DNA of 45,083 nucleotides, taken from contig JAUNAI010000002.1 of NCBI GenBank assembly GCA_030527705.1, positions 2,559-47,641 of the forward strand, written 5' to 3'. The notes under the pieces are model-generated. The model had not been told where the DNA came from. It saw only the letters and a program-made list of their open reading frames with translations, and did no database searches. Numbering within the stretch: the stretch's first letter is position 1; each line of letters starts with the position of its first letter. This DNA is from Planctomycetia bacterium (GTDB taxonomy: Bacteria; Planctomycetota; Planctomycetia; Pirellulales; Thermoguttaceae). Below are positions 21,597 to 40,797 of this stretch, piece by piece. The translations under genes and the position numbers were made by a program.

Positions 21597-23171
21597 ATGG
21601 CCGACCTGGAATCATCAGGGCCTTTACAGCCAAGATCCAGTCAATTTCTCCGTGGAAAGACTGTCCGAATCTACGGCCCACTCCAGAGTATGTCGACACG
21701 GGAAGCGACAAAACTCATTCGAGAACATGGTGGACAGGTTCTTCCGTCTGTGGCGCATGAGGAATTGGAAACGGAAAATATACCGGCCGACTGGATTATT
21801 ATCGGGGAGCGCTCACAGGTTTTCACAGATACCAGTGCGAAAGAGGTACCAGAATGGCTGTCAGACCAGCTCCGGGAGGATATCGAGTGTGGCCTGACGC
21901 ATATCGCTACGGAAACACAGCTTTTACAGCGTCTTTTTCCGGGTGATGACCGTGAGAAAGATCTTACGGCGCTTTATACTCCGGTTATGTTAGCGGAACT
22001 GTTACGTGTAACCGTCTCCGACGTACGACGATGGTATCAGCGTGGCTTAATTGCGCCTGTCCGAGTAATTAAACGGTTGCCCTATTTCGATTTAGAAGAG
22101 GTTTTCTCTGCACGTCGGCTCTCTCTTCTACTCCAGAACGGAGTAAAAACACCTTCCATCGAGAAAAAATTAAAAGCATTACGCCGTCTAAATCCCGGCA
22201 TCTTACCACTCTTGGCGAGTAATGATTTAGTAATTCAGGGAAAAAATGTTTTTTTACGCCAGAATGACCAACTTCTGGAATCGTCGGGACAGCTTTTACT
22301 CGATTTTGAGACGATTGAAAATGAACATGAAATAGCCGCTCTGACGGTTTCCAGTTCAGAATTACCACAGAATCTGGAACCGTTACCAGGACGAGTAGAA
22401 GATTACACACGTCTTGATTCTTCCGCCATGCTTGATACACTGGAAGCGTTATTTCTGGATGGTGCAGAGGCCGACACGAAAGTGGAGGAAAAACGTCCTG
22501 AAAATACGGAAACATCTGACACGGGGAATGTAGAAAATGCGAAAAATACGGAAAATACGGAAAATGTCGAGAATTCTTCAGAAACCATGTGGCAGAACGT
22601 TTCACGGCATTTCGAGACGCTTTTTGATTCAGAAATGTCGGAAAATAGTGAGGCCGCGAATCGGATTTCCATTTCGCAGATTCGTGCGTCAGCATTAGCG
22701 CTCGATGAAGCATATCGGCTGGAAGAAGCGGCGGAAATGTGGCGGAATGCGCTTTTTGCGGCAGGCGCGAACGCAGAAGACGCTTTTCAATTAGGTGACG
22801 TACTGTATCGGATGGGAAATTTACACGGTGCACGAGAACGGTTTTCGATGGCGATTGAGCTAGATGAGGATTTTGTTGAAGCACGGGCGAGTCTCGGATG
22901 CGTACTCGGTGAGTTGGGGGAAACTCAGTTGGCGATTCATGCACTTGAGGGCGCAATTGCGTACCATAGTGATTATGCGGAAGCGTATTACCATCTCGCT
23001 CGATTTTTGGAGCTGGACGGTCAAAACACTGCGGCACGACACTGTTATCAGAAGTTTCTCGCACTTACGGAAGCGTGCGACTCATTCTGGCGTCGGGAAG
23101 CGGCCGCTAAAATTGAAGAATTAACGGCCACTTCAGCGACGGATAAAAATTTATCCCAAGAGATGGATTAA
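21597..23171 (+). CDS. BRCT-like / MerR-type HTH / TPR fusion protein
   Basis: 524 residues with three parts. Residues about 17-85 (FLRGKTVRIYGPL, STREATKLIREHGGQVLP, DWIIIGE) look like a BRCT domain. About 127-197 is a MerR-type helix-turn-helix (YTPVMLAELLRVTVSDVRRW, then RRLPYFDLEEVF-like wing and RRLSLLLQNG). After a variable acidic Asn/Glu-rich linker (about 290-345), residues about 362-510 form TPR-like helical repeats (AFQLGDVLYRMGNLHGARERF, ARASLGCVLGELGETQLAIH, AYYHLARFLELDGQNTAARH). The combination suggests a DNA-binding regulator or chromosome-associated scaffold. It ends tail-to-tail with the giant gene on the other strand, the stop codons overlapping. A 3-codon minigene (ATG GGG TGA) sits just before the start; probably chance. 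Confidence 0.7.
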   Translation: MADLESSGPLQPRSSQFLRGKTVRIYGPLQSMSTREATKLIREHGGQVLPSVAHEELETENIPADWIIIGERSQVFTDTSAKEVPEWLSDQLREDIECGLTHIATETQLLQRLFPGDDREKDLTALYTPVMLAELLRVTVSDVRRWYQRGLIAPVRVIKRLPYFDLEEVFSARRLSLLLQNGVKTPSIEKKLKALRRLNPGILPLLASNDLVIQGKNVFLRQNDQLLESSGQLLLDFETIENEHEIAALTVSSSELPQNLEPLPGRVEDYTRLDSSAMLDTLEALFLDGAEADTKVEEKRPENTETSDTGNVENAKNTENTENVENSSETMWQNVSRHFETLFDSEMSENSEAANRISISQIRASALALDEAYRLEEAAEMWRNALFAAGANAEDAFQLGDVLYRMGNLHGARERFSMAIELDEDFVEARASLGCVLGELGETQLAIHALEGAIAYHSDYAEAYYHLARFLELDGQNTAARHCYQKFLALTEACDSFWRREAAAKIEELTATSATDKNLSQEMD

Positions 23172-26100
23172 ATTTTATTCTTCTCCATGTTATTCACGGA
23201 AAAGTCCCACTCATATTCAGAATCCGCATCTGTAGTGGAATCCTTTTCCAAGAGAAATTCCCACATGGCAGTCTCCTGACTCGTTTCAGCTTTTATTTGG
23301 GAGACCGTTTCTGATGTGGTTCCTGGGATATTCTCCATATTCATAGAAGAAACTGGCATGTCCGCGTTGTCGAGCGTTTCTTCCAGTAGTCGCGCACGGA
23401 GTTCTATTTCCTGACGTTCACGATTCTGCGCTTCCTGCATCGCATACGGCATTAATACAGTCCAGTCGGTGACCGTTACGTTTCCGACATTCTGGAATAA
23501 CAGCGTTTCGACTGTTTCTCCCTGAATATTTTCCGTTACCTCATTCTCTGATTCATTATTTTCCGTATTAACAGTCTCTGTATTATCACTTTTTGTGTTA
23601 TTACTTTCCATCTCGTGTACATCAGTCGTCGCGGAGAGTGGCGCAAGCGAGATCGTGTCGAGTGTGGTAACGGAGTTTACCGGAACAGGTTCCATAATTT
23701 CTACGACACCCCAATGCTGAGTCAGAGAGGTGCTAAACGTAATTTTATCACCCGTCTGCTGGTAATTCTGTGCGAAGAAAACCAAGTCGTGAATGTCGAC
23801 GGACCTATTAGCGTTATAATCACACGCCGCAGCATCTGTGGAAATCGTAGAAACTTTTCCATATTCCTGCGCGAATCGGACTAAATCGTTAATATTCACG
23901 ACTCCATCATCATTTAGGTCGTAGACTACAGCGTAAACACCTGGAAGTGTACCGGTCAGATCTTCCGTGTTACCATCAAGTGATTGACCATTCGTGTCCT
24001 GAATAGAAATAGAATTTTCCACGAAACATATTCCAGATTCCGTCGGCTTATGCGTGACTCCATCTTCCGCGAATTGAATGGGAGTGCCGTTACCTCTTCC
24101 GTATTTCGGGAGGAACTGAATACTGGTAATGAGCGCGTAACCAGCGTCGGTTTCACCGGTGCTTACGCCGACATTTTCTTTCCCTTCTTTCACAGTTGCG
24201 GTAATCGTTATCGTATTATTTCCCGCGTCCGTGATGGCTACATTTTGGAAAACTTCACGGTTCCACTCATAAGTCACATTTCCCTGCGTGTCGAACGGTG
24301 TAAACAGGGTCGGATTATAGGAAATCTGAGCAGTATACGTCGTAAGTCCATTTTCCGTCGTGGAGACGACACGGCCCCAGACTTCTACCCAGATGGTGTT
24401 CCACTCATGTACCCAGTCCGCATTTTCAGGAAGCGTTTCCACCGTCGCCGTCGTGGAGTCGACGAGTGAAAGGGAAGATTCCGTACGTACTCCAAGTCGC
24501 GTTTCCGTGGCACCGTTCAGGTTCACAGTAAATGTTTTCACATAAAGGAATGCGGAATCACCAGACTGCGTGAGGCCGAGAAGCGGGATTCCGGATTCCG
24601 GCACCACTTTTTCGGCATTCAGCGTAGTACGGAGTACGTCATCCGTCAGGATTTCACTTACATTATTCGCTGTCCAAGTAAGAACCCCGTCCACATAGGA
24701 AAAGGTTCCATGCGCTGTAATATTTTCTGCATTTCCGCCACGTGTCCGAGTTACAGAAACTGCATTTTCCCAGCCGCCGACAGGTGCAAGAACGTTTTCC
24801 GAAAATTTCCACGTAAGTGATACGGATTCTTCCGACGCACGTAGCCGATTTGTCACCGTTACGCCGTTCATCGAGAGTGCGATCGGCGCGATTCCATCTT
24901 CTGCCTGACCATCCAACGTGAGTACGCCACCTGCCAGCGTGCAGAAATCGTTCGTGTTTATCATCAGCTGAGAAGCTGTTGTGAAGTAAATCGTTGTCGG
25001 AGAGAAATGGAATGTCACGCTTTTCCCATCATTGGAAAGTGTGAAATGGGTCGCGGAGACATTTTCTTTTCCGTTAAAAATCTGGACACTTTCCACAGAA
25101 AGTCGGTCCGCGCGGATTTTATCTGAGAAGTTGAACGTCAGGGACGTGGGACGTTCCGTAAGTTTTTCGGTTACGGAAAGTTCATTTCCGTTTTCACCAC
25201 GTAAAATAAGACTTTCCATCTCCAGCGTCGGCAGGTTCTGCACAATTCCGTCTACCGTTAAAACATAATCCAGCGCTGTTCCATCCGCAGTAGCCAGACT
25301 GAGGTAATATTCTGTGCCCGCTGTGACCTGGAAAGTATACTGGTTATTCGTTGCAGTGCCAGTAATATGGTTCCCGTTCACGTCTGTCAGTTCCACGAGA
25401 AGGGTTATATTTTCCGTTCCCGTTACATTTAGACCGGTATACATCGCAGCAGTCTGGAGTGTGACTGTGATCGTATCTGAGTCCGCAGTAAAACGGTAAT
25501 AGTCATCCTGATAGTCGAAAGTATAGACCTTTCCCAGTGGTAAACCGTTCGTGAGTGCACTAGGAGCAGTAACGAAATGCATGTGATTTCCTTGCGCAGA
25601 GTCGAAACCGTAAAAACCGTTAGCGATTTCCGTCTGTGTTGGGGGAAGTGTGGAAGTCTGGAGGATTTCCCACGTGTTCCCATTCAGTTTCAGGAGTAAG
25701 GCGGTATTTTCCTGCGTAAAACCAGCCAGTGAGAGAATTCCATCCTGAAGGCGGACAGTTCGGTCTGCGGTTCCGTTAGACGTAATACCGGTCAGTTCAG
25801 TTCTCATGATAGTCGGTGCCGTTCCTGACTGCGGATTAAATTCCGTTAAATCTGCGGTATAAAGAATAACACACTTGGAATTATAGGCCGCGATGACTGC
25901 CAGTCCGTTTTCCATGGCGACAGAATAACCGAGCGCAGAGTCACTTTCCGTAGGTATAAATTGCTGAACACTCTCATAACGAGCACCATTCCACTGATAG
26001 AGAAGGACGGACCCCTGAACCGTAATTGATCCACCCTCTTGGGTCGTATACGTCTGGGTACCGGGAACTGCTACAAGAATATTTCCGTTATCCACTGCGA

Positions 26101-29100
26101 CAGAGAAACCATAAAAAGCGGTCTGACTCATCGCTGCCTCGGAAAGACGGTAACTCTGGTACTGACCATTTGAGAGATTCAGATGGAAAGCCCACACACT
26201 GCCACCATTATCCTGCGTTCCGACCGCGAGAAGTCCGTCGGAATAGTCCATTACGTAGCCGAAATCGGAAAGGGAGGACGTATTCGGATTCGTGATCTGG
26301 TGCGTCTGCGTGAATGTACCATCTCCGTTCCATCTGAAAGCATACACTGCACCACTTGATTGGTTTACACCATTCGGACCGACATTAGAGTGATTCGGTG
26401 CGGAAACGAGTAATGTCTGACCGTCGAAAACCATTGAGGTTCCGAAAGCATCTCCCGCAACGGTATCTGAAGCGGTCAGGTCTGCGATTTTTCGGTATTT
26501 TAAACCGTCGAATTTATAAATCGAGACACTTCCAGCATCTTCACCATTCGTACTGTTTCCTGGAATACCAACGAAAAGGTAATTCTCAGTGGCGACAATC
26601 GAGTGTCCGAGAAATTCCTCATAGATGGTTTCCGCCTGAATAACTCCGCTTTCTTGGGAAACATGACCGACTACCGTATTCTGAGTGTCGAGAAGAAGAG
26701 CATTATCCCGCGTGCCGTTCGTGATACCGTTAAACAGTGCGTTTTCGGTAATAACAAGATTATACGCTCCCGTGGCGGTTTTAGTACCTACTCCAGTAGC
26801 GGAAACCTGAAGAAGATATGTAACGTCAGAAGAATCAGTGTTTTGAATATTCTGGAACCATGCATCGAGCGTATCCATCGCGGAATCGGAAGACGCGAGC
26901 CATACCGTGCTACCATCCTCCAAAACTTCATAGAGATTCAGCGTCGCTTGACCGGAAATCTGGCTGGTAAAGGCAGCGGAGAATGAACTTTTTCCGGAAA
27001 TCGTAAAGCGGTAAGTGTCGGTTTCTCCTGCAGCCATGAGTGTGCCAGAAACACTCCCCTGACGAATCACTGTACTTTCCTGCGTTGCGAGTGTTGCGAG
27101 AGAAAGCTCCGTTACTGAACCAGTCACTTTTCCAGCTCCAGTTTCAGTTCCAGCTCCATTCTCAGCATTTCCTGAATTGATTTCGGTTTCCGTTACTGTT
27201 CCAGATTCCAATGTTGTGTTACGAAGAAGGGTAATTCTGAAAGTCACACCTTCTTCAGCGGTCAGCGTTGGTGCTGAGACAGTCAGTGTTTCCGTTTCAG
27301 CATTCCAGACTGTCTGGATTTTACCAGTATTTTCCACGTTTCCTGAGCTTCCATTCTCCATGACGAAATAGGTGAAAATTTCACCTTTTCCATGTGGAAT
27401 TTTGAAGCTCATCGGAGCATTCTGAGTTACATATCCCACGACATCGGTACGGTAGGCGAATGCGCCGTCCATTACCGCACGTTCCCATGCACTGTTGGAA
27501 ACAGTCATGGTCTGATTCGTGGAAGCGGTCACGGAAAAGGTATAAACGGCACTTTCCGAGAGATCTTCTGCGTAAGTATAATTACCAGCCGCGTCCATTA
27601 ATGCAGTAACACGGAAAGTATACTGGTCCGGTAAAAGAGACATACTGTCAGACATCGGCGCCCATTTAACGGTTAATGTATTCCCATTATTTACCATTTC
27701 AGTGAATGAAATATTTCCATATCCCGCTCCGGTCAGCCAGAATTCTGCACCTTCAATCGGTTCTGTGAAAATCATGGTCGCTAAACCATTCTGAGCGTCA
27801 ACAGAAATGCTCACCACATCTGGCGCCAGAGTGTCAATTCTGATGGAATTCGTGGGATTTTCCGGCGTACCAAAAACGAATTCCTGTCCAGAAACGGTAG
27901 AAAGTGCGTTTTCTGCGAGCGTGATCGTCCAGTCGCCGATTCCTAGCGTTTCCGTAAAAATAAACTCCACACGCTGCCCATCATTCTGTATGGTATAACT
28001 CTTGGGAGAAAGAATCGCACCTGTGACGTTATTCTTAACCGTAATTGCGGAAATGTTGACGGTAGACGGATTTACTGGTTCACTGAATTCCAGAACTACG
28101 TTATTCGTGCCAAGCGTACATTCCACTGTCGGAATCGGATTCACATACTTATACTCCGTAGTCAGCGCGGGGATTTCCATACCGGAAACGGATTCTAGAC
28201 CAGAAATGGTCAGAGCATAAGTGCCATTCGTGATGTTCTGTGGAATGGTCCAGACGATTTTATTACCGTCCAGAAGTTCCGGATTCTGAAGTGTGACGTT
28301 ACCCAGCTGTGCCACCATATCTGTAAGGCTCGAAACGAGAATCTGTTGCGCATATTCCACGATAATCTCATTAGATAACGTACCGTCCATATTCAGGGAG
28401 ATACCCGCATCCTGATATTCGGTAAGGGTACCAGAGGTTACTTCCAGACGGTATTCCGTACCTGATGTATCACCAGAATTATTCGAGTCACCAGATTCTC
28501 CCGCGGAAAGAATGAGGGTATAAGTTCCCAACATTTTCGGCGTGAAAGTATAAGTCCGCGTCGTGGAGTCGGTATTCGTTTTCGATGTAAATGTGACCGG
28601 AAGGCCGTTCGGGTCCAGAATTTCGACATTCGGTAACGTTTTACCTTCTTTCTGCGCAGAAAGCGTGAACGTTACTGGTTCCATACCGGTTACATTTAAC
28701 GTCCAGCGGTCGATATTCGAGAAATTCGTGAATGTGTAAATCCGATTCTGAAGGGAATCCCAGACGTCGAGCCGATTCGCGGAGAGTGCGACCGCATTGC
28801 CTAACGCACCTTCTTCTGTGTGCTGAATCGTCTGATCCAATTCCCAGACGGCATTCACACCACTGGCACTCGCGTGATAAAGATACACGATTCCTAATGG
28901 TGCTAAATTACTGTTTAATGCTCTATTCGAGCCGACAGCTAACTGTGAGCCAGAAAGGGAGATTGAACCGCCGAAATTGGTGACATACTTACTTTCCTCC
29001 AGTGCCTGTAGCTCGGTAACAGCCTCCCACGCGTTTCTATCCGTATTCCACGCGTATATCCGAACGACGTTCGTAACGCCGGCACCACATGAAACCGCCA

Positions 29101-30727
29101 GCGTGTTCCCAGAAAGCGCAACAGCCCGGCCAAAGTGCGTAACACTTTCCTGAGTCTCGAATTTATCTGATGAAATCGCTCCATTCAAAGTAGATTCCAA
29201 CGTCACTTCACCGGAAGCACTGATGTGGAAAATATAAAGCATATTCGCACTTTCATTCTCACACGCGACACAGAGGCGAGAAGAAATGGAATCCCATGCT
29301 AAAACGGAACCGAAACCGAATCCCGTAGTATCAGAAATTGCGAGAGTTCTAACAAAATTCCAGGAAGTTACAGAGCGCTGAAAAACATATACCGCACCGG
29401 AATCTGTACCATTTAAGTCACTATTCGGGGCGGAAATGAAAGCGTAATTTCCCTGTAAAAGAACCGTTGCGCCAAATTTATCACCAGTGGCAACTGAGGG
29501 AGCGTTGAGTGTGGTTGCGAGCAGTTTATCACCATTTCGCGTGTAAACCTGCGCTAAATTATTCGCTGCGTCGCCGATGAGAATGGAGTTTCCCGAAACA
29601 GAGATTTTCTGTCCGAAAGTGGCAAGATCAATTCCAGTTCCTGTCGTATTGGTTGTGTCATAGGTGACAGAAGCCAGTTCACGCCACATGGAAGCGGAAT
29701 ATTCCAGAAGACGGAGTGTAACGGAAGTAAAACCACCCCCCGTCTTCGGAAGGTATGTGACGGTAGCCATACGGGAATCTGAAACGGAGAAAGCACGGAT
29801 TTTTTCGCCCGTAAATTCACAGATTTTCTCTGTCATGGCACTTTCACTGCCGCTAATCATTCCAAGTCCCACACCAGAGGTATTCAGGTGGTTAACCAGT
29901 GCGGATTCTTCACCAGTACTCGTTTCGACGATGCAGTTTTCCGTGACGGTAAGCGCATATTGACTAGCCGCTGTCGTGCTACTACCATTCGTGTTGGAAG
30001 TGGTAACACGGAGAAAATAGTTTCCGTTTTTGAGCGCCACAGAGCTGAGAACACTATTCACATCATCAACGGAAGTGGAATATGCTAAAATATTCTGATT
30101 TGCGTCATAAAGTTCCAGTGAAAGTTGGGTACCAGAGAGGGAATGAAGCTGGAAATTCGCTGTTCCCCCTTGAGCAGTAATACGGTAACAGTCGGCAGTA
30201 TCCGCACCGCCAATTTCTCCCATCACAACTACCTGACGCTGGGGTTTCGCGGATTGGTTCCCGGAACTGTCACGGAGCGTTGTAAATGTAAGTGGCTGCA
30301 CACTTTCTGAGAAGGTATTATTCGTTTTTTCACCGAGTAATTCCGTTTCCAGTGCACTGTTACTGACGGCATACAACGTGTAGGAACCGTCCTTATTACT
30401 GGAATTTTCGAGCACGAGCGTAGCCGTTGTGTAATCACTCGTGTTAACCGTAAATTGGCGATTCACATTGAAAGACGCATCACCATTCGGTGAACGAAAA
30501 ATAGTGTTAACCTGATTATGATTGATACAGAACACGGTTACGGAATCCAACTCTGTAGTATCCAGTGAAATCTGAGTACTTTCATAAGATTTCAGGTCAA
30601 TCTCCTGTGTCCAGTAAACGGCCTGTGTCCCCGTCGGCGGAAGGGGCGCAAAAGATGGCGTAGCACTGAGAAGAACGCGATTTTCTAGGGATTCCAGCTG
30701 AAGGGTACGTTTTTTGAGGGATTCCAT
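23168..30727 (-). CDS. Giant LEPR-XLL surface protein with FG-GAP, PPC and dockerin modules
   Basis: 2519 residues. The N-terminus LQLESLENRVLLSA (9-22) is the LEPR-XLL type segment of planctomycete exported giants; there is no classical signal peptide. Modules in order: a PPC-like domain (about 165-262), FG-GAP/integrin-like propeller repeats (about 290-690, with VSGNSILIGDAANNLAQVY and GNYAFISAPNSDLNGTDSGA), Ig-like/SbsA-like domains (about 700-1150), a second PPC (about 1250-1330), a second propeller (about 1390-1720), more beta domains, a cohesin-like beta domain (about 2100-2260, starting EWNTIWVEVW), and a dockerin with two calcium loops (DLNDDGVVNINDLV and DYNANRSVDIHDLV, about 2267-2325). 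An acidic tail of some 190 residues follows. It probably serves adhesion or extracellular scaffolding. AGGAA precedes the ATG. Confidence 0.85.
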   Translation of the reverse strand: MESLKKRTLQLESLENRVLLSATPSFAPLPPTGTQAVYWTQEIDLKSYESTQISLDTTELDSVTVFCINHNQVNTIFRSPNGDASFNVNRQFTVNTSDYTTATLVLENSSNKDGSYTLYAVSNSALETELLGEKTNNTFSESVQPLTFTTLRDSSGNQSAKPQRQVVVMGEIGGADTADCYRITAQGGTANFQLHSLSGTQLSLELYDANQNILAYSTSVDDVNSVLSSVALKNGNYFLRVTTSNTNGSSTTAASQYALTVTENCIVETSTGEESALVNHLNTSGVGLGMISGSESAMTEKICEFTGEKIRAFSVSDSRMATVTYLPKTGGGFTSVTLRLLEYSASMWRELASVTYDTTNTTGTGIDLATFGQKISVSGNSILIGDAANNLAQVYTRNGDKLLATTLNAPSVATGDKFGATVLLQGNYAFISAPNSDLNGTDSGAVYVFQRSVTSWNFVRTLAISDTTGFGFGSVLAWDSISSRLCVACENESANMLYIFHISASGEVTLESTLNGAISSDKFETQESVTHFGRAVALSGNTLAVSCGAGVTNVVRIYAWNTDRNAWEAVTELQALEESKYVTNFGGSISLSGSQLAVGSNRALNSNLAPLGIVYLYHASASGVNAVWELDQTIQHTEEGALGNAVALSANRLDVWDSLQNRIYTFTNFSNIDRWTLNVTGMEPVTFTLSAQKEGKTLPNVEILDPNGLPVTFTSKTNTDSTTRTYTFTPKMLGTYTLILSAGESGDSNNSGDTSGTEYRLEVTSGTLTEYQDAGISLNMDGTLSNEIIVEYAQQILVSSLTDMVAQLGNVTLQNPELLDGNKIVWTIPQNITNGTYALTISGLESVSGMEIPALTTEYKYVNPIPTVECTLGTNNVVLEFSEPVNPSTVNISAITVKNNVTGAILSPKSYTIQNDGQRVEFIFTETLGIGDWTITLAENALSTVSGQEFVFGTPENPTNSIRIDTLAPDVVSISVDAQNGLATMIFTEPIEGAEFWLTGAGYGNISFTEMVNNGNTLTVKWAPMSDSMSLLPDQYTFRVTALMDAAGNYTYAEDLSESAVYTFSVTASTNQTMTVSNSAWERAVMDGAFAYRTDVVGYVTQNAPMSFKIPHGKGEIFTYFVMENGSSGNVENTGKIQTVWNAETETLTVSAPTLTAEEGVTFRITLLRNTTLESGTVTETEINSGNAENGAGTETGAGKVTGSVTELSLATLATQESTVIRQGSVSGTLMAAGETDTYRFTISGKSSFSAAFTSQISGQATLNLYEVLEDGSTVWLASSDSAMDTLDAWFQNIQNTDSSDVTYLLQVSATGVGTKTATGAYNLVITENALFNGITNGTRDNALLLDTQNTVVGHVSQESGVIQAETIYEEFLGHSIVATENYLFVGIPGNSTNGEDAGSVSIYKFDGLKYRKIADLTASDTVAGDAFGTSMVFDGQTLLVSAPNHSNVGPNGVNQSSGAVYAFRWNGDGTFTQTHQITNPNTSSLSDFGYVMDYSDGLLAVGTQDNGGSVWAFHLNLSNGQYQSYRLSEAAMSQTAFYGFSVAVDNGNILVAVPGTQTYTTQEGGSITVQGSVLLYQWNGARYESVQQFIPTESDSALGYSVAMENGLAVIAAYNSKCVILYTADLTEFNPQSGTAPTIMRTELTGITSNGTADRTVRLQDGILSLAGFTQENTALLLKLNGNTWEILQTSTLPPTQTEIANGFYGFDSAQGNHMHFVTAPSALTNGLPLGKVYTFDYQDDYYRFTADSDTITVTLQTAAMYTGLNVTGTENITLLVELTDVNGNHITGTATNNQYTFQVTAGTEYYLSLATADGTALDYVLTVDGIVQNLPTLEMESLILRGENGNELSVTEKLTERPTSLTFNFSDKIRADRLSVESVQIFNGKENVSATHFTLSNDGKSVTFHFSPTTIYFTTASQLMINTNDFCTLAGGVLTLDGQAEDGIAPIALSMNGVTVTNRLRASEESVSLTWKFSENVLAPVGGWENAVSVTRTRGGNAENITAHGTFSYVDGVLTWTANNVSEILTDDVLRTTLNAEKVVPESGIPLLGLTQSGDSAFLYVKTFTVNLNGATETRLGVRTESSLSLVDSTTATVETLPENADWVHEWNTIWVEVWGRVVSTTENGLTTYTAQISYNPTLFTPFDTQGNVTYEWNREVFQNVAITDAGNNTITITATVKEGKENVGVSTGETDAGYALITSIQFLPKYGRGNGTPIQFAEDGVTHKPTESGICFVENSISIQDTNGQSLDGNTEDLTGTLPGVYAVVYDLNDDGVVNINDLVRFAQEYGKVSTISTDAAACDYNANRSVDIHDLVFFAQNYQQTGDKITFSTSLTQHWGVVEIMEPVPVNSVTTLDTISLAPLSATTDVHEMESNNTKSDNTETVNTENNESENEVTENIQGETVETLLFQNVGNVTVTDWTVLMPYAMQEAQNRERQEIELRARLLEETLDNADMPVSSMNMENIPGTTSETVSQIKAETSQETAMWEFLLEKDSTTDADSEYEWDFSVNNMEKNKI

Positions 30728-30855
30728 ATTCGTTTCCTGTTATAATGGACTAGGTATCTATTTTTATTGGTTTTATATTAGTTCTATATTGTTTTTATAT
30801 TGGTTATGGTCCGATTTAGGTTGGCTTTGGGAATTCTATTCGCTTTTTTACCGCG

Positions 30856-30908
30856 AAAAAGGACGGGTGTTGAGAAAATGTGTGTTCTCCCAGCAGCCCG
30901 TCCTTGTG
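30856..30908 (-). terminator. Rho-independent terminator of the larger giant gene
   Basis: Read on the minus strand, CCCGTCC (from 30903-30897) pairs with GGACGGG (30867-30861), flanked by two more A-T pairs and an inner GAGAA/TTCTC stem. It is followed by TTTTT (30860-30856). It lies 26 bases past the stop of the 3287-residue gene, so the two giant genes are probably separate transcripts. Confidence 0.8.
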
Positions 30909-30933
30909 TGTTACTCAACCCGGAAAAGGAAGA

Positions 30934-33900
30934 TTATTCCTGATCGTTGAGTTGAATCCGTAACGTTTCCTGCGCGATGTCCTCCAATTCGCGGGCGAAA
31001 TCGTCATCGTTGAACAGGTCATCCATTGGTACTTCCGAAACGGCTGTCGCAAGATTGACCTGCGTATCTTCCATGACGGAATCCACCATGGATGGATTTA
31101 CCGACGTTTTAGCCTCGGCCGGGGTCCATTCTTCCCACGCCTGTTCATTCGCAGCGACGGTAGCCTGTTCGACCGCTTGGGTGGCGGACTCGACAAGCAT
31201 TGCGTTCCAGTCACTTTCCGCCATGATATTAGAAGCGGTAGTAAGGAGAATACCGTTCTGAACTTCACTGCCGAGGGTGCAGGCAACCGTTCCGCTAATC
31301 GCATCCGGACGCACGCCATTCACTGAACCACCTTCCTTACGAGCATTGGCTACGATTTCAGCGTCGAGATCGGAAATCTCATGACGGATACCGGTACCAA
31401 TCATGTCGTTCATCAGGTCGCCGTTCGTGACTACATGACCATTGAAAATGTAATGTACATTACCATCTTCGGCCTTGTAGGTGGAAGTCGTACCATCAAT
31501 CAGCGAGTTATATCCATCGTAAGACGGACTCATGCCGAGCGCGTGCCCAAGTTCATGGAGGAGTACCGAGTACAGGTCATACTGGTCACTGATGACGTTA
31601 TCACTCGAACCAGCATACCAGCCCATTCCGAGCGCGTCGGAATCGAGATACACCACTGCGGAGTTCGGTTTCCCGAATTCATCGCAACCAAGGAGCAACG
31701 TTTCCGCGAGGCAACCACCGTCGACATTCTCGTAATCTTTTACGATAATCTGGACGTTAAGGTTCAGTTCTTCACCGAGCTTTTCACTCCAAGAGAGAAT
31801 CGCGTCGTTGAGCGTGTCCGCCACGTTCGAGTCACCTTCCGTATCGAGCGTCGCACCAATCCACGTCTGGAAGAAGTTCATCGGATACATCACTTCCACG
31901 TTACTGTCGCGGCTTACGTTGTAGTTCTGCGCGAAGGAAACCAGGTCGTTAATGTCGATTTTTCCACTGTTATTGAAGTCCATCGCCCAGATTCGAGCGT
32001 CTGTCGTATCAACGGAATTCTGACCGAATTCGTGCGCGAACAGTACCAGGTCTTTAATGTCAATCAGTCCATCGTCGTTCGCATCGTACACGGAGGCGAA
32101 AACTTTCGTGTTGACATAAACCTGTTCGTTCACCTGTAACAGGGCGGTAGCCGAGTCACGTAGGAGGACATTCGACAGCTGGAGGCCCATCGAAACGGAA
32201 TTCAGCGTATCCGCCGCCACGTTGTCGGTTCCAACAGATTCCAGCTGAACCCGACCGAGCAGGACGAAACCATCTTCACGAGTGATGGCGTTCATCAAGT
32301 CGCCGCGGATACCGGAAACTTTACCATTAGCGTCGTTAATCGTAACTTCATTACCGTTCAGGACGTTCGTGCTGTACTCGAAGCCGGTCGCGGTGAAGTA
32401 ATCGGTATTATACAGCAGATTCAGATCGAAACTGGAAATGTCGGTTCCGATTTCCTGCGTATTCACCCACAACTCGACCCACGAGGAATCCCATTCCGTG
32501 ATGTAGGCATCACTTTCGCGGAGGGTGTCGGACGTTTCCACATCGGACTTATCCTTCACAACGGACATGTACACGCCGTTACCTTCCACAACCGTCTCAC
32601 GATTGGCGGTGTTACCCTTGACAGGCGTTCTGTTGGAGTAGTCGGTAATGACCGTCTGCGCCTGTGAAATCACACCTGCGCCAGTGATGTTACCAGCGGT
32701 ATCGATTTTGCTACCAGCGAGACCGATACCGGGGTAATTTTCGCCGTAGGCTTTATTCGCATTAATAACCATCGCCATCGTTGAATTACTTACCGTTTCA
32801 CCGATTTCCACAGGTCCAGCAGCAGTAAAGTTCAGGTAGGACAGCAAGTAATCCTCGTTGCAGTAACCATCACCAATTGCACCAGAAGTGGTTAGTGCTT
32901 TAAGTGTATTCGCCGTAAGAGTAAATTTCTCGAAACCGTCTGTACCCATTTCACGATTTCCACTGCGGATGTCCTGGGTATTCAAGACATTAACACCTTT
33001 TAGGAATACCGTTACATCGGAGTATAACGCGAATGCCTGATAGTAACTCAAAACATCCTTGTTGAAAATCGGCAGGTTACACTGTAACCAGACCTGATAG
33101 GAATAGGTGTTGTTGGCACTAGTTGAGGCATAATCGATGAAGTCATCCGTGTCGAACGACGTGGGCAGGTTACCACCGTTGTCCTGTACGGTCGCACCTT
33201 CGACGATACCCGTTACGATTTCGAATGGCTTCACGAAGTCCGTGGAAACCTTAATGGACATTTCCGTGCCACCGTTGAATGTCAGTTTCATGTACTCTTC
33301 CGTACGGTCCTGCGTCACGTCGTACGGCAGGTAGTAAACCGAAAATTTACCGGTTGTCGCATCATAACCAATATACTGGAACGGACTGTTCGGATCGGTC
33401 GCGGTGGAAACGACCTGAATTTCACGGGCTTCACGATTTCCGTCAACTGTCAGACTGAATACCGTAATCGTTTCCGTGGAGGAAACCAGTTTTTCACATA
33501 TCGCACTATCCAGCGTCAGGCCCAGATCATGCTCGAGGTAAACCGTATGTTCCACCACCGTACCATCATTCGTAATTTCACGAGTCGCTTCGTAAATTTT
33601 GATGATGGTATCCGTATCAGCCTTCTGCGTGTTCAGGACCAGTTCGGTTAGGAGACTGCTATCCTTCGCAAAATTGGAACCTGCGAGGATTTTCGACCCT
33701 GTTTTAATCTCAAGGTATTTCGGATTGCCAGACGTCTTACCATATAAAGACATATCTTGTGAAAGAGTAATGTCTTCTGTAAGCGTGTACTCTGATCGGA
33801 AAATCAGTCGGAGATCACCATCTTCCGTTTCCCCAAATTCTGCAATCGTAGCACCGAGGCTGGTAAATTCAGTCGGATCACCATTACAGTAGAACGTGGT

Positions 33901-36900
33901 GTTTTTCGGAATAACGGTTCCAGCTTTCAAAATAGTTCCAGCTTTCAGGACCGTTCCTGAAATGGCTTTAATATCACATTCCAACACGATATCTTCGGAT
34001 ACAGTTGTATCAGACGGGAACACCGTGCCAGCAGGATGCGTTTCCGTTGCCGGTATATACGGATTCAGACTTTCGTCCTTGATCATCGTTTCGCCACCGA
34101 CAGCGACGTAAATCTTCTGCTCAACAGTCTGGGCACTTCCATCTTTTGCGATGATGGTATACTCGTAAACGCCCATTGGGCAGTCACTGGCAATGCTGAT
34201 GGTTGCAGCGGAATCCTGCGTTTTACTCACGATTGTAATCGCGTCGCCGTCCGGGTCAGTGAACATACCACCGAACAGGTCCTGAAGATTCAGCACATCT
34301 CCCGGTTTGGCCGAGACAATAAAGTTCGCGTCTTCTTTCGGAGCCGGAGCGTCGTTCTTGTTGTTGATGGTCAGGATGATCGGGAAGTCCGTCTGAATCG
34401 CAACCGCATCACCGACAGCCGTATCTTTAACCGTCAGAGTAACCGTGACCGTACCGTGGAAATCTTTGTCATCCGGCGTGAAAATGAGGTTGCCAGTCGC
34501 TTTATCGTAAGTGACCGTTCCTGTTGTTTCGTAGCCCGTACGAGCATCGGTGACCGTGTAACCTTCTTTAACGACGATTTCCAGGTCATTGAATGCTGTA
34601 TCGTTGTTCACATCGACGATTTTGTCACCCATGTTCAGGCTGTAAATCGGATTTTTAGCCGTCTGGTCTTCCTGGTCTTCCTGAACCGTCCACTGATACG
34701 CACCATCCACAACTTCAGTCTGAGCAATTTCACTCCACGTCGGCGCCCAGTTGACGTCGGTGATGTTGAGGTAAATGTGAGCTGAGAATTCTTCACCATT
34801 CAGGGTCAGCGTGTAGGTTAGGTTATGTTCACCACGAGCATAAGCCGGAATAGTGATTTCAATGTTCCCCGCGTCTGTGACGACGTACGTATAACCTTCG
34901 GGCAGACCAGCAACTGCGCCAATCGTCGCGCCCGCTTCGCTGCACAGTTCACTGTACAGAATCGTGACTTTCTGCGCTTCCTGAGCACGTTCCACCGTTT
35001 CGGTCACAGAGTGCGCCGCCGCACTGAACTGGAGCGTGTAGGTATTTTCCGCTGTCTGGCCAGTTGAATCATTCTTCACGGTATAAGTGAACTGAATTTC
35101 CACACCATCGAGTGCTTCCCATACCGTGTCGGCTGCGTCGGCGTACAGCGTAGTCGTGTTACCTTCCGTAACGGAATAGAGGGTAAACTTGACATCTGTT
35201 CCTACATTTTCCATCAAGATACAGTACGTTGCGTCGCCTTTCGTAATGTTAATCGCATTTTTGCCGTCCACTGTCGTGGATTTTACCGTGTCGGTTTCCT
35301 TCAGCGTCATCGAAATGAATGCGACATTCCCACTATCCGTATCGGTATCGCAACCCGCCATGATAGAATCCTGCGTAATGAAGGCAGATTCATCATTGAC
35401 CGGGAAATAACCGAGGTTCGGCTTGGTGTACGGAACGACTTCCGTGTTCGTGACTTCCACGACAACGGTATTTTCTACACCGTTAGCAGAGAATATCAGC
35501 GTCGCATTTCCGTAAGCATTTTCCGCAAGCGTAAAGCTGATTTCTCCATCCGCAATGGTTGGTTCACCGACGAACAGGGACGTACACTGCGTCTGCGTGC
35601 GGTTTCCATCCGCCGTTGTGACGGTATTACCGTTGGCAGTCTCGTTAGTCACATTAACCACCCAATTTACAGCATCAACTGTGTAACCGCCCCACGCGTC
35701 ATCCGGGTTAAACAGATTTTTTGCTGTGACAGTGATCGTCTGCATGCCAGAATTTTCGGCAACAGACAGTTTTTCAGCAGAAACACTCTGAATACCAGCC
35801 CACTTGATGGTCACGTTAATCGTGTATTTTTTCTCGATTTCGTTTTCACCATCTTTCACCGTGACGGTCATCGTCGCGTTACCGTATTTACCCGCGGAAG
35901 GATTCCACGTTACGACTTTACCGGAAATGTCACAGGGGTCTTCTGTTCCATTGGCAATGACGGTCGCACTTTCGATCGTCCACTGGTCGCCTTCCGGGTC
36001 ATTGAAGTAATCCGACAGATCAAACGTGTAAGACGGATTATCTTGACTTACGTCCTGCGTGATGGGGTCGGTATCCAATTTTACCTGATCCACCGGCAGA
36101 TTCGTCTTGGAAATCGTCGCTTTTTCAGTCGTAATTGCCTGTTCGTACACGTCGGTCAGCGTTACCGTCAGCGTTCCGACAGTGTGCACCGCACGGACCG
36201 CAGCTTTGTCGTTCAGCGTGAACGTGAGGACCCAGTTGTCGCCATCCAGTTCCTGTTTCGTCAGCGAGATAGCGTCGTCCAACTTGCTCTCGCTCGTGAA
36301 ATTGAACGTATAGGTCAGTTTTTCTTTACCGTTGTTCGCGTCCGTATCGTTGAAGAGCGCATCAATTTCCGCTTTCGTGTAGGTGACCGTGACCGTATTT
36401 ACCGTATCACTTTCCGGATACGTGAAGGAATTGTCTTTCAGCGTAACGTTCGTCAGAATCGGCGAGTGGTCATAGGAAACTGTAATGACTTTATTAACGC
36501 CCGTTTCGTCAGTCCAGACCGTCTCATTTCCAGCATCGTCTTTCACTTTGAACTGGAATTTCGTGTCGCCGAAGGAGAGATCCGTAACGCCAGTTTCAGC
36601 ATCATAATCTGTCCATTTACCACCATTGGCGGAATACTGAATCGTGTATTCCGAAGTTTCCGCGATGTCGAAATTGAACTTCGCATAGTTGAGCGTGGTG
36701 GAACCGGAATTTTCCACGATGAGCGAGTTACCCACGAGCGTAATGCTGTCGATGACCGGAGGTTTCGTGTCGACCGTGATAGAAGAACCGATGGTTGCCG
36801 TGTCGGTTTTATTGCTTGCCGCGTCGATGATTTCGTAGGTGAACGCATGTGCGCCGTCAGCGAGATTGTCAACCGTCACTTCGGTCGGGAATACGCCATT

Positions 36901-39900
36901 TTTGGCTTTCACCGTCTTCACTTCTGTACCATTATCGTAAATGACGAGCCAGCAGTCACTTGCGTCAGTCAGACCGTTCGTGATGGTGAACGTCTGGGAC
37001 GTTTCTTTCGTCGGCGTTGCGTCATTTTTCAGCGTCACGGAACCGGTAAAGGTCGGGACCGTTTTGTCGAAAGTAATGCTGTAACTCACGGACGGGTCGG
37101 TTTCCGTCGACGCTTCCGTAATACCGTCATTGCCCCAGAATTTCAGGGTGTAAACGCCTTCCGTCGTCAGCGTAGCAGTTCCGGTTGCCGTGGCAGTTTT
37201 CGTATCCGTGATATTGCCTTCACCACAGATAATGATGTTGCCATCCGGACCGACAAGCACCCACGCGGCACTCACAATCGCAGTATCGTCCGTAATCGTC
37301 GCGTTAAAGGTGAAATTACCGTCTTTAATCGCGAAGTTGCCCGCCTCGTATGCGGAATTGTTCGTGACCGTCAGATTTCCCGGTTTCACCGTCGGTGCTT
37401 CATTATCGTAAATGTACTCAATGTTCAACTGAAGCTCAATCGTTTCATCGAATTCATCCTTCAGCGTGACATTCAGCGTGGCGAAAAGGTCGTTGTCGAG
37501 CGTGACCTCTTCCATGTCGAGAATCAGCTTGCCGTTCACGATTTCCGCGGATTCAATCGCGTCGTTGTTCGTGAGCGCAATCTGTCCGACCTGCTCGAGC
37601 GTCTTTTCATCTGTGATGTAATCCGCGAGGTCCAGAACGATTTTACCAGCGTAATTGCCGGAAGTTTCCTTGAAACCAACGCTCAGGAGCTGGTCGAAAA
37701 CAGCTTTATCAACCGTGCCAAGTCCCGGAATTACCGTGCTGGCATCAGCTTTATAACCTGTATTCGTCGTGTTCGCAACTGGTTTCTTGTTGTAAATAAT
37801 CGTGAACGTGTTGGACACTTCACTCTTATTACCCGCGGCGTCTTCCGAAACAAGCGTGAAGGTGTTTTCGCCGTACTTGAGCGTGACTTCATAAGACTCG
37901 CCGAACGTAATTTCTTCACCGTTCAGGTAAAGTTTCTCCACGCCGGAAAGGTTATCCGCATAATTGAAGTTCAGCGTGTACGATTCATTTTCCGTCTTGG
38001 GGTCCGTATTTGTGATTTCCGCAGTCGGCGCGGTCATATCAACCACGTAATCTTCAATCGTCGCGGTAGTGTAGTTGCCCGCGTTGTCCCAGACGGTGAG
38101 CGTAAACGTATACGTTCCGTCCGCAAGCGTTTCATCGCCCGGCTGATCGTTATAAATACCGTTGCCGGAAATCGGAAATTCTGCCTTGAACGTACCGGAA
38201 ACTTCTTTACCATCCACAGTGGTTCCGCTGTAGGTAATCTCACGGTTCATCGCTTCCGTGCCTGCGTTGGTCACGTTGAAATTCAGCGTCGGCTGATCTT
38301 TGGTCGGAGTCGCTACAGTCGGCTTGAAACTATCCGTAACAATCGCTCCTTTTAACTCGGTATCGACAGTAATCGTATCAAACGTAACCGCCTCTGGCGT
38401 CTCGTTACCGAATTTGTCCGCAGACGTATAGGAAATTTTGATTACGTCGTCATTTTTCAGATTGTTCAGCTTAATAGTTGCCGTGCTGTTTTCGAACTCT
38501 TCCAGAGTGACGTTCTTGACTTCAATGTCGTTTACCGTAATCGAAACATTTGCCGATGTGATTTCGCTCTTGTCCGTGATGCTCAATTTAATCTCGGCAG
38601 TATCTTTGTTGGTCGTGAGGTCAGCGGTATTGATTATACCCTTGAAATCTTCATTTTGGTTCGTGAAAGAAACCACCGGAGCAGCCACATCGTTTGTGAT
38701 ATGAATCGTAAATTCAATTTCTTCACGTTTTGCGTCGCCTTCGCCGTAGAACGCGGTTTTTCCATGTTCGTCGGTATAGGAAATCGTTACGTTGGAAGTA
38801 TATTTCACGATAGTGGTCGAATTGCACTCATTCAGTGTCAAAACGAGGTTTCCATTTTTGTCGATATTTTTATTCGTGACCGCCTGACCGTCGTATAGAA
38901 CTGTGATTCTATCCAAGTCAATCGTGGAACCATCGGTTTCATTGAACAGACTGGCAACATTTTCGATAATATATTTCGAATCCTTGTCGTTACGGAGATA
39001 CTCATCAGGCTGTTTGTCATACTTCTGCCCATTTTCCGTAATCTGCGGAACCTGATTGTACGTGTATTTATACGTCGCGGATTCCGTGTTGCCTGCGATG
39101 TCGGAAACGGTAAACACAATCGTATTTTCACCATGATTGAGCGTGAAATTCTCGAAAACGTACTGAACATCACCATCAACCACCGTGGGTGTGCCGGTGA
39201 GCGTATTTCCGTTGAGCGTCACTGTCGGATTCGTTTCCGCCGGGGCTTTCATGTTCGTGTCTTTCACAACGATCGTAAGCGTCTGATTCTCAGCATCCAC
39301 ATACATCGTACCTTCATAATCCGCCAAGAATCCCGGAGCGGTAATGGTCGGTTTCGTCGTGTCGATTGTGATTTCCTGCGTCTTGGACTCTGATTTATTA
39401 TTCAGAAGGTCACGCGTGTATGTCGTAAATGTGTACACACCGTCCGCCAACGCCGGCACGGTAAACGCATAGGAAAAATCGTACGTGTCACCATTTTGGG
39501 TGAATTCTTTTCCCGTCAGTTTATATTCGAGCTTCTGCGTCTGACCGTCTTTAATCGCATATTCCAGAACGATCCAGATTCCTTCAGAGGAACTGTTGAT
39601 TTCACTGACGATTTTCTCGTAATCCGCCTGACTAATGCCCGTTGCGGAGACGAGATAATTTGGCGAGTTGTCGGCCGTGTAGGTTTTCTCGGCATAAATC
39701 GTACTGGTCGAAGTAAGCGTGAGCGTTCCCGGCACGAGCGTCGGCGCGTCCGTATTCAAGTTAATTGTAAAGGTATTTTCACTACTTTCCGTACCCGCAT
39801 AACTCATGGTCGTGGAAATCGTGGAGTTATCCTCGACATCTTTCAGCGTCAGCGTGAAATTACCGTCCGCGTCCACCACGTAATTCAGTTCGTTGTCATT

Positions 39901-40797
39901 CGCGTACATGTCATCAATCGTGATCGTCTGCAGATTTCCGTCCACGTCGGTATACTCGATTTCACCAACAATCGTCATGCTCCCTTTCGGCGGCAATTTA
40001 CCGGAAACTTCGACTTCACCACCGGCCTGAGCGACCGTGTATTCCTGCGTCTCTTCATCAGTAAGCGTCGCATCCGTACCGTTCACATTCAGACCTTCCA
40101 GCGTCGGTTTCACGATGATCGTCTGCTCAATTTTCAGACCGGAATCATACGCGCCTTTTACCAACGCGTTGAATTCATCCTGACTCAGCTTTCCGTCACT
40201 GTTAAGGTCCAACAAGCGATTAAATTCCAGCGTAGAAATATTAATTCCATACTGCTGCTGGAACATCATGGCTGTCCGTTGCGAAATACCTTGTCCCTTG
40301 AGAACATTTCCGAATGATGAATAGTATTCCGTATATCCTACAGAACCATCACCATCGATAATGTCTCCCGGAGTAGTGAAAAGAACACTAATCTGATTGT
40401 CCTTATTCACACCATTTACCGTGACGGTATAGTCCGTACCAAGTCCCATGCGCAGGAGCAGAGTCGTGACACCATCTTCTTTAACCGATTTAATAATATC
40501 CTGACGCGTACCATTTTTATCTGTAATGGTAATGTCCGAAGCATCTACGTCGCCCTGAACATGCATCGCAATATACTGTAGTTGGTCTACGTCATTTTTG
40601 GTACTATTCAGGGTAACGTAAAACGTCTCCGCCTGAATACCGTCTTCGGCGGCAACCATTGAAACCGCGGAGAGCAAATGGCGTTCCTCCAGAGATTCCA
40701 ACTGAGGATTACGCGCTTTTCGGTTCATCGCCGGAACCATTTTTTTGCTACGAAGACCGGATTTGGAAAAATACTGGGTTTCAGTGTTCTTTTTCAT
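30934..40797 (-). CDS. Giant LEPR-XLL protein with Ig/cadherin-like repeats, dockerin and metzincin-like protease
   Basis: 3287 residues. LEPR-XLL segment LESLEERHLLSA (about 33-44) after a basic extension; an EF-hand (DLNSDGKLSQDEF, about 195-207); then some 2500 residues of Ig-like and cadherin-like domains (repeated ...NTFTLVSEDAAGNKSEV, ...FTPDDKDFHGTVTVTLTVKD). A cohesin-like domain (about 2765-2895, starting EWDSSWVELW) is followed by a dockerin (DANDDGLIDIKDLV and DFNNSGKIDINDLV, about 2900-2960). A metalloprotease domain (about 2975-3190) has HELGHALGM (zinc ligands H3081, H3085; E3082 catalytic) and a possible Met-turn (GDLMNDM). The usual third ligand at +10 is proline; a later histidine (NGHV or GIRHE) may replace it. 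The C-terminus is acidic. Probably a calcium-dependent surface protease or scaffold. Confidence 0.85.
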   Translation of the reverse strand: MKKNTETQYFSKSGLRSKKMVPAMNRKARNPQLESLEERHLLSAVSMVAAEDGIQAETFYVTLNSTKNDVDQLQYIAMHVQGDVDASDITITDKNGTRQDIIKSVKEDGVTTLLLRMGLGTDYTVTVNGVNKDNQISVLFTTPGDIIDGDGSVGYTEYYSSFGNVLKGQGISQRTAMMFQQQYGINISTLEFNRLLDLNSDGKLSQDEFNALVKGAYDSGLKIEQTIIVKPTLEGLNVNGTDATLTDEETQEYTVAQAGGEVEVSGKLPPKGSMTIVGEIEYTDVDGNLQTITIDDMYANDNELNYVVDADGNFTLTLKDVEDNSTISTTMSYAGTESSENTFTINLNTDAPTLVPGTLTLTSTSTIYAEKTYTADNSPNYLVSATGISQADYEKIVSEINSSSEGIWIVLEYAIKDGQTQKLEYKLTGKEFTQNGDTYDFSYAFTVPALADGVYTFTTYTRDLLNNKSESKTQEITIDTTKPTITAPGFLADYEGTMYVDAENQTLTIVVKDTNMKAPAETNPTVTLNGNTLTGTPTVVDGDVQYVFENFTLNHGENTIVFTVSDIAGNTESATYKYTYNQVPQITENGQKYDKQPDEYLRNDKDSKYIIENVASLFNETDGSTIDLDRITVLYDGQAVTNKNIDKNGNLVLTLNECNSTTIVKYTSNVTISYTDEHGKTAFYGEGDAKREEIEFTIHITNDVAAPVVSFTNQNEDFKGIINTADLTTNKDTAEIKLSITDKSEITSANVSITVNDIEVKNVTLEEFENSTATIKLNNLKNDDVIKISYTSADKFGNETPEAVTFDTITVDTELKGAIVTDSFKPTVATPTKDQPTLNFNVTNAGTEAMNREITYSGTTVDGKEVSGTFKAEFPISGNGIYNDQPGDETLADGTYTFTLTVWDNAGNYTTATIEDYVVDMTAPTAEITNTDPKTENESYTLNFNYADNLSGVEKLYLNGEEITFGESYEVTLKYGENTFTLVSEDAAGNKSEVSNTFTIIYNKKPVANTTNTGYKADASTVIPGLGTVDKAVFDQLLSVGFKETSGNYAGKIVLDLADYITDEKTLEQVGQIALTNNDAIESAEIVNGKLILDMEEVTLDNDLFATLNVTLKDEFDETIELQLNIEYIYDNEAPTVKPGNLTVTNNSAYEAGNFAIKDGNFTFNATITDDTAIVSAAWVLVGPDGNIIICGEGNITDTKTATATGTATLTTEGVYTLKFWGNDGITEASTETDPSVSYSITFDKTVPTFTGSVTLKNDATPTKETSQTFTITNGLTDASDCWLVIYDNGTEVKTVKAKNGVFPTEVTVDNLADGAHAFTYEIIDAASNKTDTATIGSSITVDTKPPVIDSITLVGNSLIVENSGSTTLNYAKFNFDIAETSEYTIQYSANGGKWTDYDAETGVTDLSFGDTKFQFKVKDDAGNETVWTDETGVNKVITVSYDHSPILTNVTLKDNSFTYPESDTVNTVTVTYTKAEIDALFNDTDANNGKEKLTYTFNFTSESKLDDAISLTKQELDGDNWVLTFTLNDKAAVRAVHTVGTLTVTLTDVYEQAITTEKATISKTNLPVDQVKLDTDPITQDVSQDNPSYTFDLSDYFNDPEGDQWTIESATVIANGTEDPCDISGKVVTWNPSAGKYGNATMTVTVKDGENEIEKKYTINVTIKWAGIQSVSAEKLSVAENSGMQTITVTAKNLFNPDDAWGGYTVDAVNWVVNVTNETANGNTVTTADGNRTQTQCTSLFVGEPTIADGEISFTLAENAYGNATLIFSANGVENTVVVEVTNTEVVPYTKPNLGYFPVNDESAFITQDSIMAGCDTDTDSGNVAFISMTLKETDTVKSTTVDGKNAINITKGDATYCILMENVGTDVKFTLYSVTEGNTTTLYADAADTVWEALDGVEIQFTYTVKNDSTGQTAENTYTLQFSAAAHSVTETVERAQEAQKVTILYSELCSEAGATIGAVAGLPEGYTYVVTDAGNIEITIPAYARGEHNLTYTLTLNGEEFSAHIYLNITDVNWAPTWSEIAQTEVVDGAYQWTVQEDQEDQTAKNPIYSLNMGDKIVDVNNDTAFNDLEIVVKEGYTVTDARTGYETTGTVTYDKATGNLIFTPDDKDFHGTVTVTLTVKDTAVGDAVAIQTDFPIILTINNKNDAPAPKEDANFIVSAKPGDVLNLQDLFGGMFTDPDGDAITIVSKTQDSAATISIASDCPMGVYEYTIIAKDGSAQTVEQKIYVAVGGETMIKDESLNPYIPATETHPAGTVFPSDTTVSEDIVLECDIKAISGTVLKAGTILKAGTVIPKNTTFYCNGDPTEFTSLGATIAEFGETEDGDLRLIFRSEYTLTEDITLSQDMSLYGKTSGNPKYLEIKTGSKILAGSNFAKDSSLLTELVLNTQKADTDTIIKIYEATREITNDGTVVEHTVYLEHDLGLTLDSAICEKLVSSTETITVFSLTVDGNREAREIQVVSTATDPNSPFQYIGYDATTGKFSVYYLPYDVTQDRTEEYMKLTFNGGTEMSIKVSTDFVKPFEIVTGIVEGATVQDNGGNLPTSFDTDDFIDYASTSANNTYSYQVWLQCNLPIFNKDVLSYYQAFALYSDVTVFLKGVNVLNTQDIRSGNREMGTDGFEKFTLTANTLKALTTSGAIGDGYCNEDYLLSYLNFTAAGPVEIGETVSNSTMAMVINANKAYGENYPGIGLAGSKIDTAGNITGAGVISQAQTVITDYSNRTPVKGNTANRETVVEGNGVYMSVVKDKSDVETSDTLRESDAYITEWDSSWVELWVNTQEIGTDISSFDLNLLYNTDYFTATGFEYSTNVLNGNEVTINDANGKVSGIRGDLMNAITREDGFVLLGRVQLESVGTDNVAADTLNSVSMGLQLSNVLLRDSATALLQVNEQVYVNTKVFASVYDANDDGLIDIKDLVLFAHEFGQNSVDTTDARIWAMDFNNSGKIDINDLVSFAQNYNVSRDSNVEVMYPMNFFQTWIGATLDTEGDSNVADTLNDAILSWSEKLGEELNLNVQIIVKDYENVDGGCLAETLLLGCDEFGKPNSAVVYLDSDALGMGWYAGSSDNVISDQYDLYSVLLHELGHALGMSPSYDGYNSLIDGTTSTYKAEDGNVHYIFNGHVVTNGDLMNDMIGTGIRHEISDLDAEIVANARKEGGSVNGVRPDAISGTVACTLGSEVQNGILLTTASNIMAESDWNAMLVESATQAVEQATVAANEQAWEEWTPAEAKTSVNPSMVDSVMEDTQVNLATAVSEVPMDDLFNDDDFARELEDIAQETLRIQLNDQE

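Follow-up and report, generated by a model that had tools for sequence, protein, structure and literature searches.

Two giant planctomycete genes in tandem each encode a dockerin directly after a cohesin-like domain, which raises the question of whether each dockerin binds the neighbouring domain, the corresponding domain of another chain, or a partner elsewhere. Both genes are on the minus strand, with intact ORFs, within the 45,083-nucleotide stretch of DNA analysed here (the window). The upstream gene (30934..40797) encodes P0002, a giant LEPR-XLL protein of 3287 aa, identified by its ORF and by syntenic orthologues in six genomes of the genus, and the downstream gene (23168..30727) encodes P0001, likewise a LEPR-XLL giant, which is 2519 aa long and contains FG-GAP repeats (PF14312, E=5.6e-28). 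A preliminary description of this DNA noted that the tandem giants share a LEPR-XLL segment, and the alignment bears this out: the N-terminal segments of P0001 (residues 5-27; 30635..30703, minus strand) and P0002 (residues 27-49; 40651..40719, minus strand) are 61% identical. The P0001 segment scores above the cut-off of NF012209, and NCBIfam LEPR-8K is above cut-off in P0001 only, with P0002 assigned by alignment. The P0002-type/P0001-type tandem is kept in six sister genomes of the genus, and a divergent gene for a BBP2-type porin (41395..42825, plus strand; PF07642, E=2.8e-56) adjoins it in four of five relatives. The window's genome comprises 4.36 Mb in 514 contigs; among named records, those closest to it are MAGs of Thermoguttaceae and Planctomycetia, several of which come from herbivore guts.

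Beyond the LEPR-XLL segment, the giants are homologous over a C-terminal unit of ~250 residues (P0001 2091-2339 and P0002 2751-2979; 30% identity, E=3e-17, BLASTP). No other local match between the two proteins comes close to this one, which is thus not due to chance. As described earlier, the unit contains similar segments, EWNTIWVEVW at aa 2108 of P0001 and EWDSSWVELW at aa 2768 of P0002, followed by a two-loop dockerin. Elsewhere the chains are unlike, with FG-GAP repeats in P0001, and bacterial Ig-like domains and a metzincin-like domain after the dockerin in P0002.

Structure prediction supports a cohesin fold for the domain before the dockerin in both giants, as had been proposed. AlphaFold2 models built from 15-16 sequences were of moderate quality for P0001 (mean pLDDT 71) and good for the cohesin part of P0002 (mostly 70-90), and both models display the jelly-roll beta-sandwich of cohesins. 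Cohesins ranked first for both models with Foldseek and VIA-align 2, and nearly all Foldseek matches were cohesins. The P0002 domain (aa 2741-2903, containing the motif EWxxxWVELW; 32089..32577, minus strand) superimposed on cohesin 6kgc with a VIA Z of 13.4 and 2.6 A over 133 residues, and the P0001 domain (aa 2091-2266; 23930..24457, minus strand) on cohesin 2vo8 with a Z of 11.2 and 2.6 A over 125 residues, while unrelated pilin/adhesin domains scored lower for both models in VIA-align 2 (Z about 7.6-10.5). The sequence tie to known cohesins is weak but consistent. Pfam PF00963 (cohesin) had no match above chance in the isolated P0001 and P0002 domains and matched seven of 24 family members weakly, below cut-off (best E=0.0013), and cohesins were among the best matches of the family profile in the PDB (E 0.07-1.3). 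Among the best structural matches were cohesins of Archaeoglobus fulgidus (2xdh) and Clostridium perfringens (2vo8, 2jh2), which have the cohesin fold and are non-cellulosomal; to our knowledge, neither LEPR-XLL giants nor a dockerin code spanning the genome have been connected with these.

The dockerins of P0001 (aa 2269-2325; 23753..23923, minus strand) and P0002 (aa 2904-2961; 31915..32088, minus strand) each consist, by sequence, of two calcium-loop/helix repeats, in which the ligands lie at positions 1, 3, 5, 9 and 12. On excised units, Dockerin_1 scored 24.3 bits for P0001, above its cut-off of 22.9, and a weak 15.6 bits, below cut-off, for P0002, in which EF-hand_7 was above cut-off. 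The closest solved dockerin by profile is the type II dockerin of Bacteroides cellulosolvens (2y3n, E=2.3e-9). The recognition positions read I/N/V/A/Q and I/H/V/A/Q in the first and second repeats of P0001, and I/K/V/A/H and I/N/V/A/Q in those of P0002. To assess internal symmetry, both 21-residue repeats were excised from 76 dockerins and compared with shuffles. Agreement between the repeats of one protein was far above the shuffles at positions 10, 11, 14, 17, 18 and 20 and hardly so at 2, 4, 5, 7 and 8; the repeats matched in 92% of the 76 proteins at position 10 (26% expected) and in 70% at position 18 (20% expected). The recognition face is thus internally symmetric.

A search of the window's genome for the same domain pair, suggested in the preliminary description, found the cohesin-dockerin unit in at least eight further giants, and the unit-bearing proteins scanned include Ig-like, LRR, FG-GAP, beta-helix and FN3 giants. 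At the threshold used, the unit family is present in four of 98 genomes of the phylum, the window's own included. Eight genomes of the genus gave 40 cohesin-like and 40 dockerin matches, 33 of each adjacent by coordinates, and all 31 were paired in three additional genomes, of which two consist of a single contig, such that nearly every cohesin-like domain has a dockerin beside it. On reading, few true exceptions remained in the eight genomes: a second cohesin without a dockerin in C81, and a dockerin without a cohesin in G002:C111. The latter protein (L074) has a body that matches no Pfam family and, by eye, resembles a cysteine peptidase. The other unpaired cases were units cut at contig ends and one orthologue group with a degenerate dockerin. 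In these apparent orthologues from six genomes of the genus (L034, L078-L081 and L084), the EW cohesin-like domain is followed by a dockerin that has an insertion past its first calcium loop and lacks the usual recognition helix.

Across the 76 dockerins, the residues at the recognition positions look genome-specific. We therefore compared, column by column, the likeness of non-orthologous proteins of the same genome with that of proteins of different genomes, using 209 aligned columns of the unit in 35 proteins from the eight genus genomes. In the MAFFT alignment, the top ten of the 209 columns were dockerin positions 10, 11, 14, 17 and 18 of both repeats (z 4.1-6.9), the next was a cohesin column (P0002 aa 2813, z 4.05, in this alignment only), and all others were below 2.9. 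In a profile alignment, z exceeded 4 only at 10, 11, 14 and 17 in both repeats and at 18 in the second repeat. Homogenisation within genomes was not seen for any class of cohesin column in this test, which has lower power in these columns due to their poor alignment.

The same effect was seen in comparisons of individual protein pairs. For the syntenic pair in seven genomes, the recognition positions were 0.66 identical within and 0.38 across genomes (exact p=0.003), whereas the cohesin domain was 0.27 identical in both comparisons (p=0.66). Among pairs with cohesin identity below 25%, the recognition positions were 0.725 identical within and 0.391 across genomes (z 8.3). Conversely, orthologues from different species were only 0.44 identical at the recognition positions, compared with 0.61 at other dockerin positions. 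A replication in distant lineages, with the prediction fixed beforehand, was only partly successful: positions 10, 11, 14, 18 and 20 ranked high, but so did 5, 9 and 15, and 17 was moderate, probably because the paralogues in those lineages share recent ancestry. Correlating the species code with cohesin divergence gave r about 0.63 for the P0002 and P0001 types alike; the values do not discriminate between the two types and are confounded by species relatedness.

The positions involved are those known from other dockerins. Positions 10, 11, 17, 18 and 22 are specificity determinants in clostridial cellulosomes and differ between species groups (PMC5748583), and in the B. cellulosolvens complex 2y3n, with positions mapped by us from the aligned sequence, binding requires the residues at 10 and 20, and position 14 is in contact with the cohesin (PMC8063739).

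A face that is kept alike across otherwise unrelated proteins and shifts jointly from one species to the next would be the expected outcome of a single shared partner. The sequence comparisons thereby give a clear evolutionary signal for a shared dock, and we consider it somewhat better than an even bet that the tagged giants of a species share one common partner in trans through their dockerins. Each giant has, near its C-terminus, a fixed unit of a predicted cohesin-fold domain and a dockerin. According to this model, the dockerin would be a working docking tag, its recognition face being alike within a species and changing as a set between species. These putative surface proteins would plug into the shared partner as cellulosomal enzymes do, and the neighbouring cohesin-fold domain would most likely be a structural companion rather than a general receptor. 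We infer that the code signifies binding, that the partner is single and that it is either outside the family or one member of it.

The shared residues might instead have no functional meaning and reflect ancestry, base composition or dockerin segments copied from gene to gene. Shared ancestry is indeed visible in the distant lineages, and the non-recognition positions of the dockerin are also slightly more alike within genomes (0.49 compared with 0.45). The effect, however, falls on five positions of both repeats, is weak or absent at the flanks and in the adjacent domain, and persists when related pairs are left out. Recent gene conversion is unlikely, since a shared residue is encoded by one and the same codon in just 45% of the same-genome cases; the codons echo the code only faintly, and conversion is unsupported as its cause. 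Base composition is likewise unsupported, given that I and V also alternate at position 8, where no clear genome effect is seen. Overall, we regard a non-functional origin of the code as improbable.

The remaining alternatives give the adjacent cohesin-fold domain a larger role. The dockerin could pack in cis on this domain, forming a rigid calcium-stabilised unit that binds nothing else, in keeping with its place directly after the cohesin and with how rarely the two are found apart (all 31 paired in three genomes). Such packing predicts coevolution inside each protein rather than a code common to unrelated paralogues of a species, and one fixed contact does not need repeat symmetry at the recognition face; we give this arrangement little credence. 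It is also conceivable, though on balance we think it unlikely, that chains polymerise or cross-link into a surface net, each dockerin binding in trans a cohesin of the same giant or of another one. Every chain carries both halves, the cohesin fold is predicted, the numbers of cohesins and dockerins are near one-to-one, and a promiscuous network of paralogues would likewise need a common code. On the other hand, paralogous cohesins share about 20-27% identity and lack species-wide homogenisation where the dockerins have it, which argues against a self-contained pair on each chain and for one common partner. The earlier suggestion that the adjacent cohesin is the partner of the dockerin and that the chains polymerise is therefore unsupported. 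The code test would be blind, however, to one particular cohesin of the set, for example the conserved P0002 type, serving as general receptor for all the dockerins; this is possible, and would also be compatible with a net.

The layout described here differs from that of a cellulosome, in which one scaffoldin carries many cohesins and dockerins are found on the enzymes. Cellulosome bacteria likewise have one docking code per species across their tagged proteins, and the type II cohesin-dockerin pair of B. cellulosolvens (2y3n) resembles the unit described here in its hydrophobic, symmetric recognition face (positions 10, 14 and 20) and in its cohesin fold. In contrast to that system, the cohesin and dockerin here are adjacent in one chain, and the scanned cargo consists of the giants listed above rather than glycoside hydrolases. 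No plant-polysaccharide enzyme was found in the ten dockerin-bearing proteins scanned in the window's genome, and a search of the eight genus genomes found no scaffoldin with several cohesins and no Pfam cohesin above cut-off. Four stray, weak PF00963 matches in sister genomes were rejected by eye as receptor candidates, being an efflux-pump adaptor and other unrelated frames, and appear to be due to chance.

Dockerins are enriched in huge planctomycete proteins and are poorly characterised there (PMC11573180). The NCBIfam family NF041540 (GC-type dockerin domain-anchored protein) also has dockerins on large proteins; of 24 members of the present family, 12 match it (best E=2.3e-6), with the two window proteins below its cut-off (16.4 and 13.2 bits compared with 29). 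The planctosome proposed for Nemodlikiaceae is itself a hypothesis, with separate anchoring, adaptor and peptidase proteins (PMC6461901); like the present system, it has cohesin and dockerin modules in surface proteins of planctomycetes, together with peptidases. In our family, by comparison, nearly every protein has the same cohesin-dockerin unit, and a recognition code does not appear in the passage of the planctosome account consulted here. The parts of the present system, cohesin, dockerin and LEPR-XLL, are known; the arrangement, nearly always one cohesin beside one dockerin, is new. We tentatively suggest, with less than even confidence, that giant non-enzymatic proteins of some planctomycetes may plug into a cellulosome-like surface system, with one species-specific dockerin code and one receptor other than a classical scaffoldin. 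If the species code is real, the giants would be assembled on a shared dock and a single dockerin could be used to fish out the receptor. Concerted evolution of the recognition positions could also serve as a sequence test for functional non-cellulosomal dockerins.

We also noted other dockerin arrangements and further domains in the giants. Strict one-to-one pairing of cohesins and dockerins is not universal, given that in one relative, genome G012, no cohesin was detected for many of the dockerins. In three G012 proteins (L187, L181 and L179), dockerins in tandem carry a second code, V-S-G-A, and a cohesin was not detected; another dockerin type in the same genome has the code L-G-A-S. The metzincin-like domain that follows the P0002 dockerin (aa 2985-3155; 31333..31845, minus strand; weak PF00413 match, E=0.0018) contains HELGHALG at aa 3081 (31543-31557) and is kept in all P0002-type orthologues. 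The putative zinc site of these orthologues comprises HExxH and a later conserved GH, with the third His off the standard HExxHxxGxxH spacing in a region where the AlphaFold2 model is poor. At the same post-dockerin place, a full HExxHxxGxxH site is found in many relatives but is absent from P0001 of the window. Finally, a lone EF-hand-like loop lies near the N-terminus of P0002 (aa 194-214; 40156-40218).
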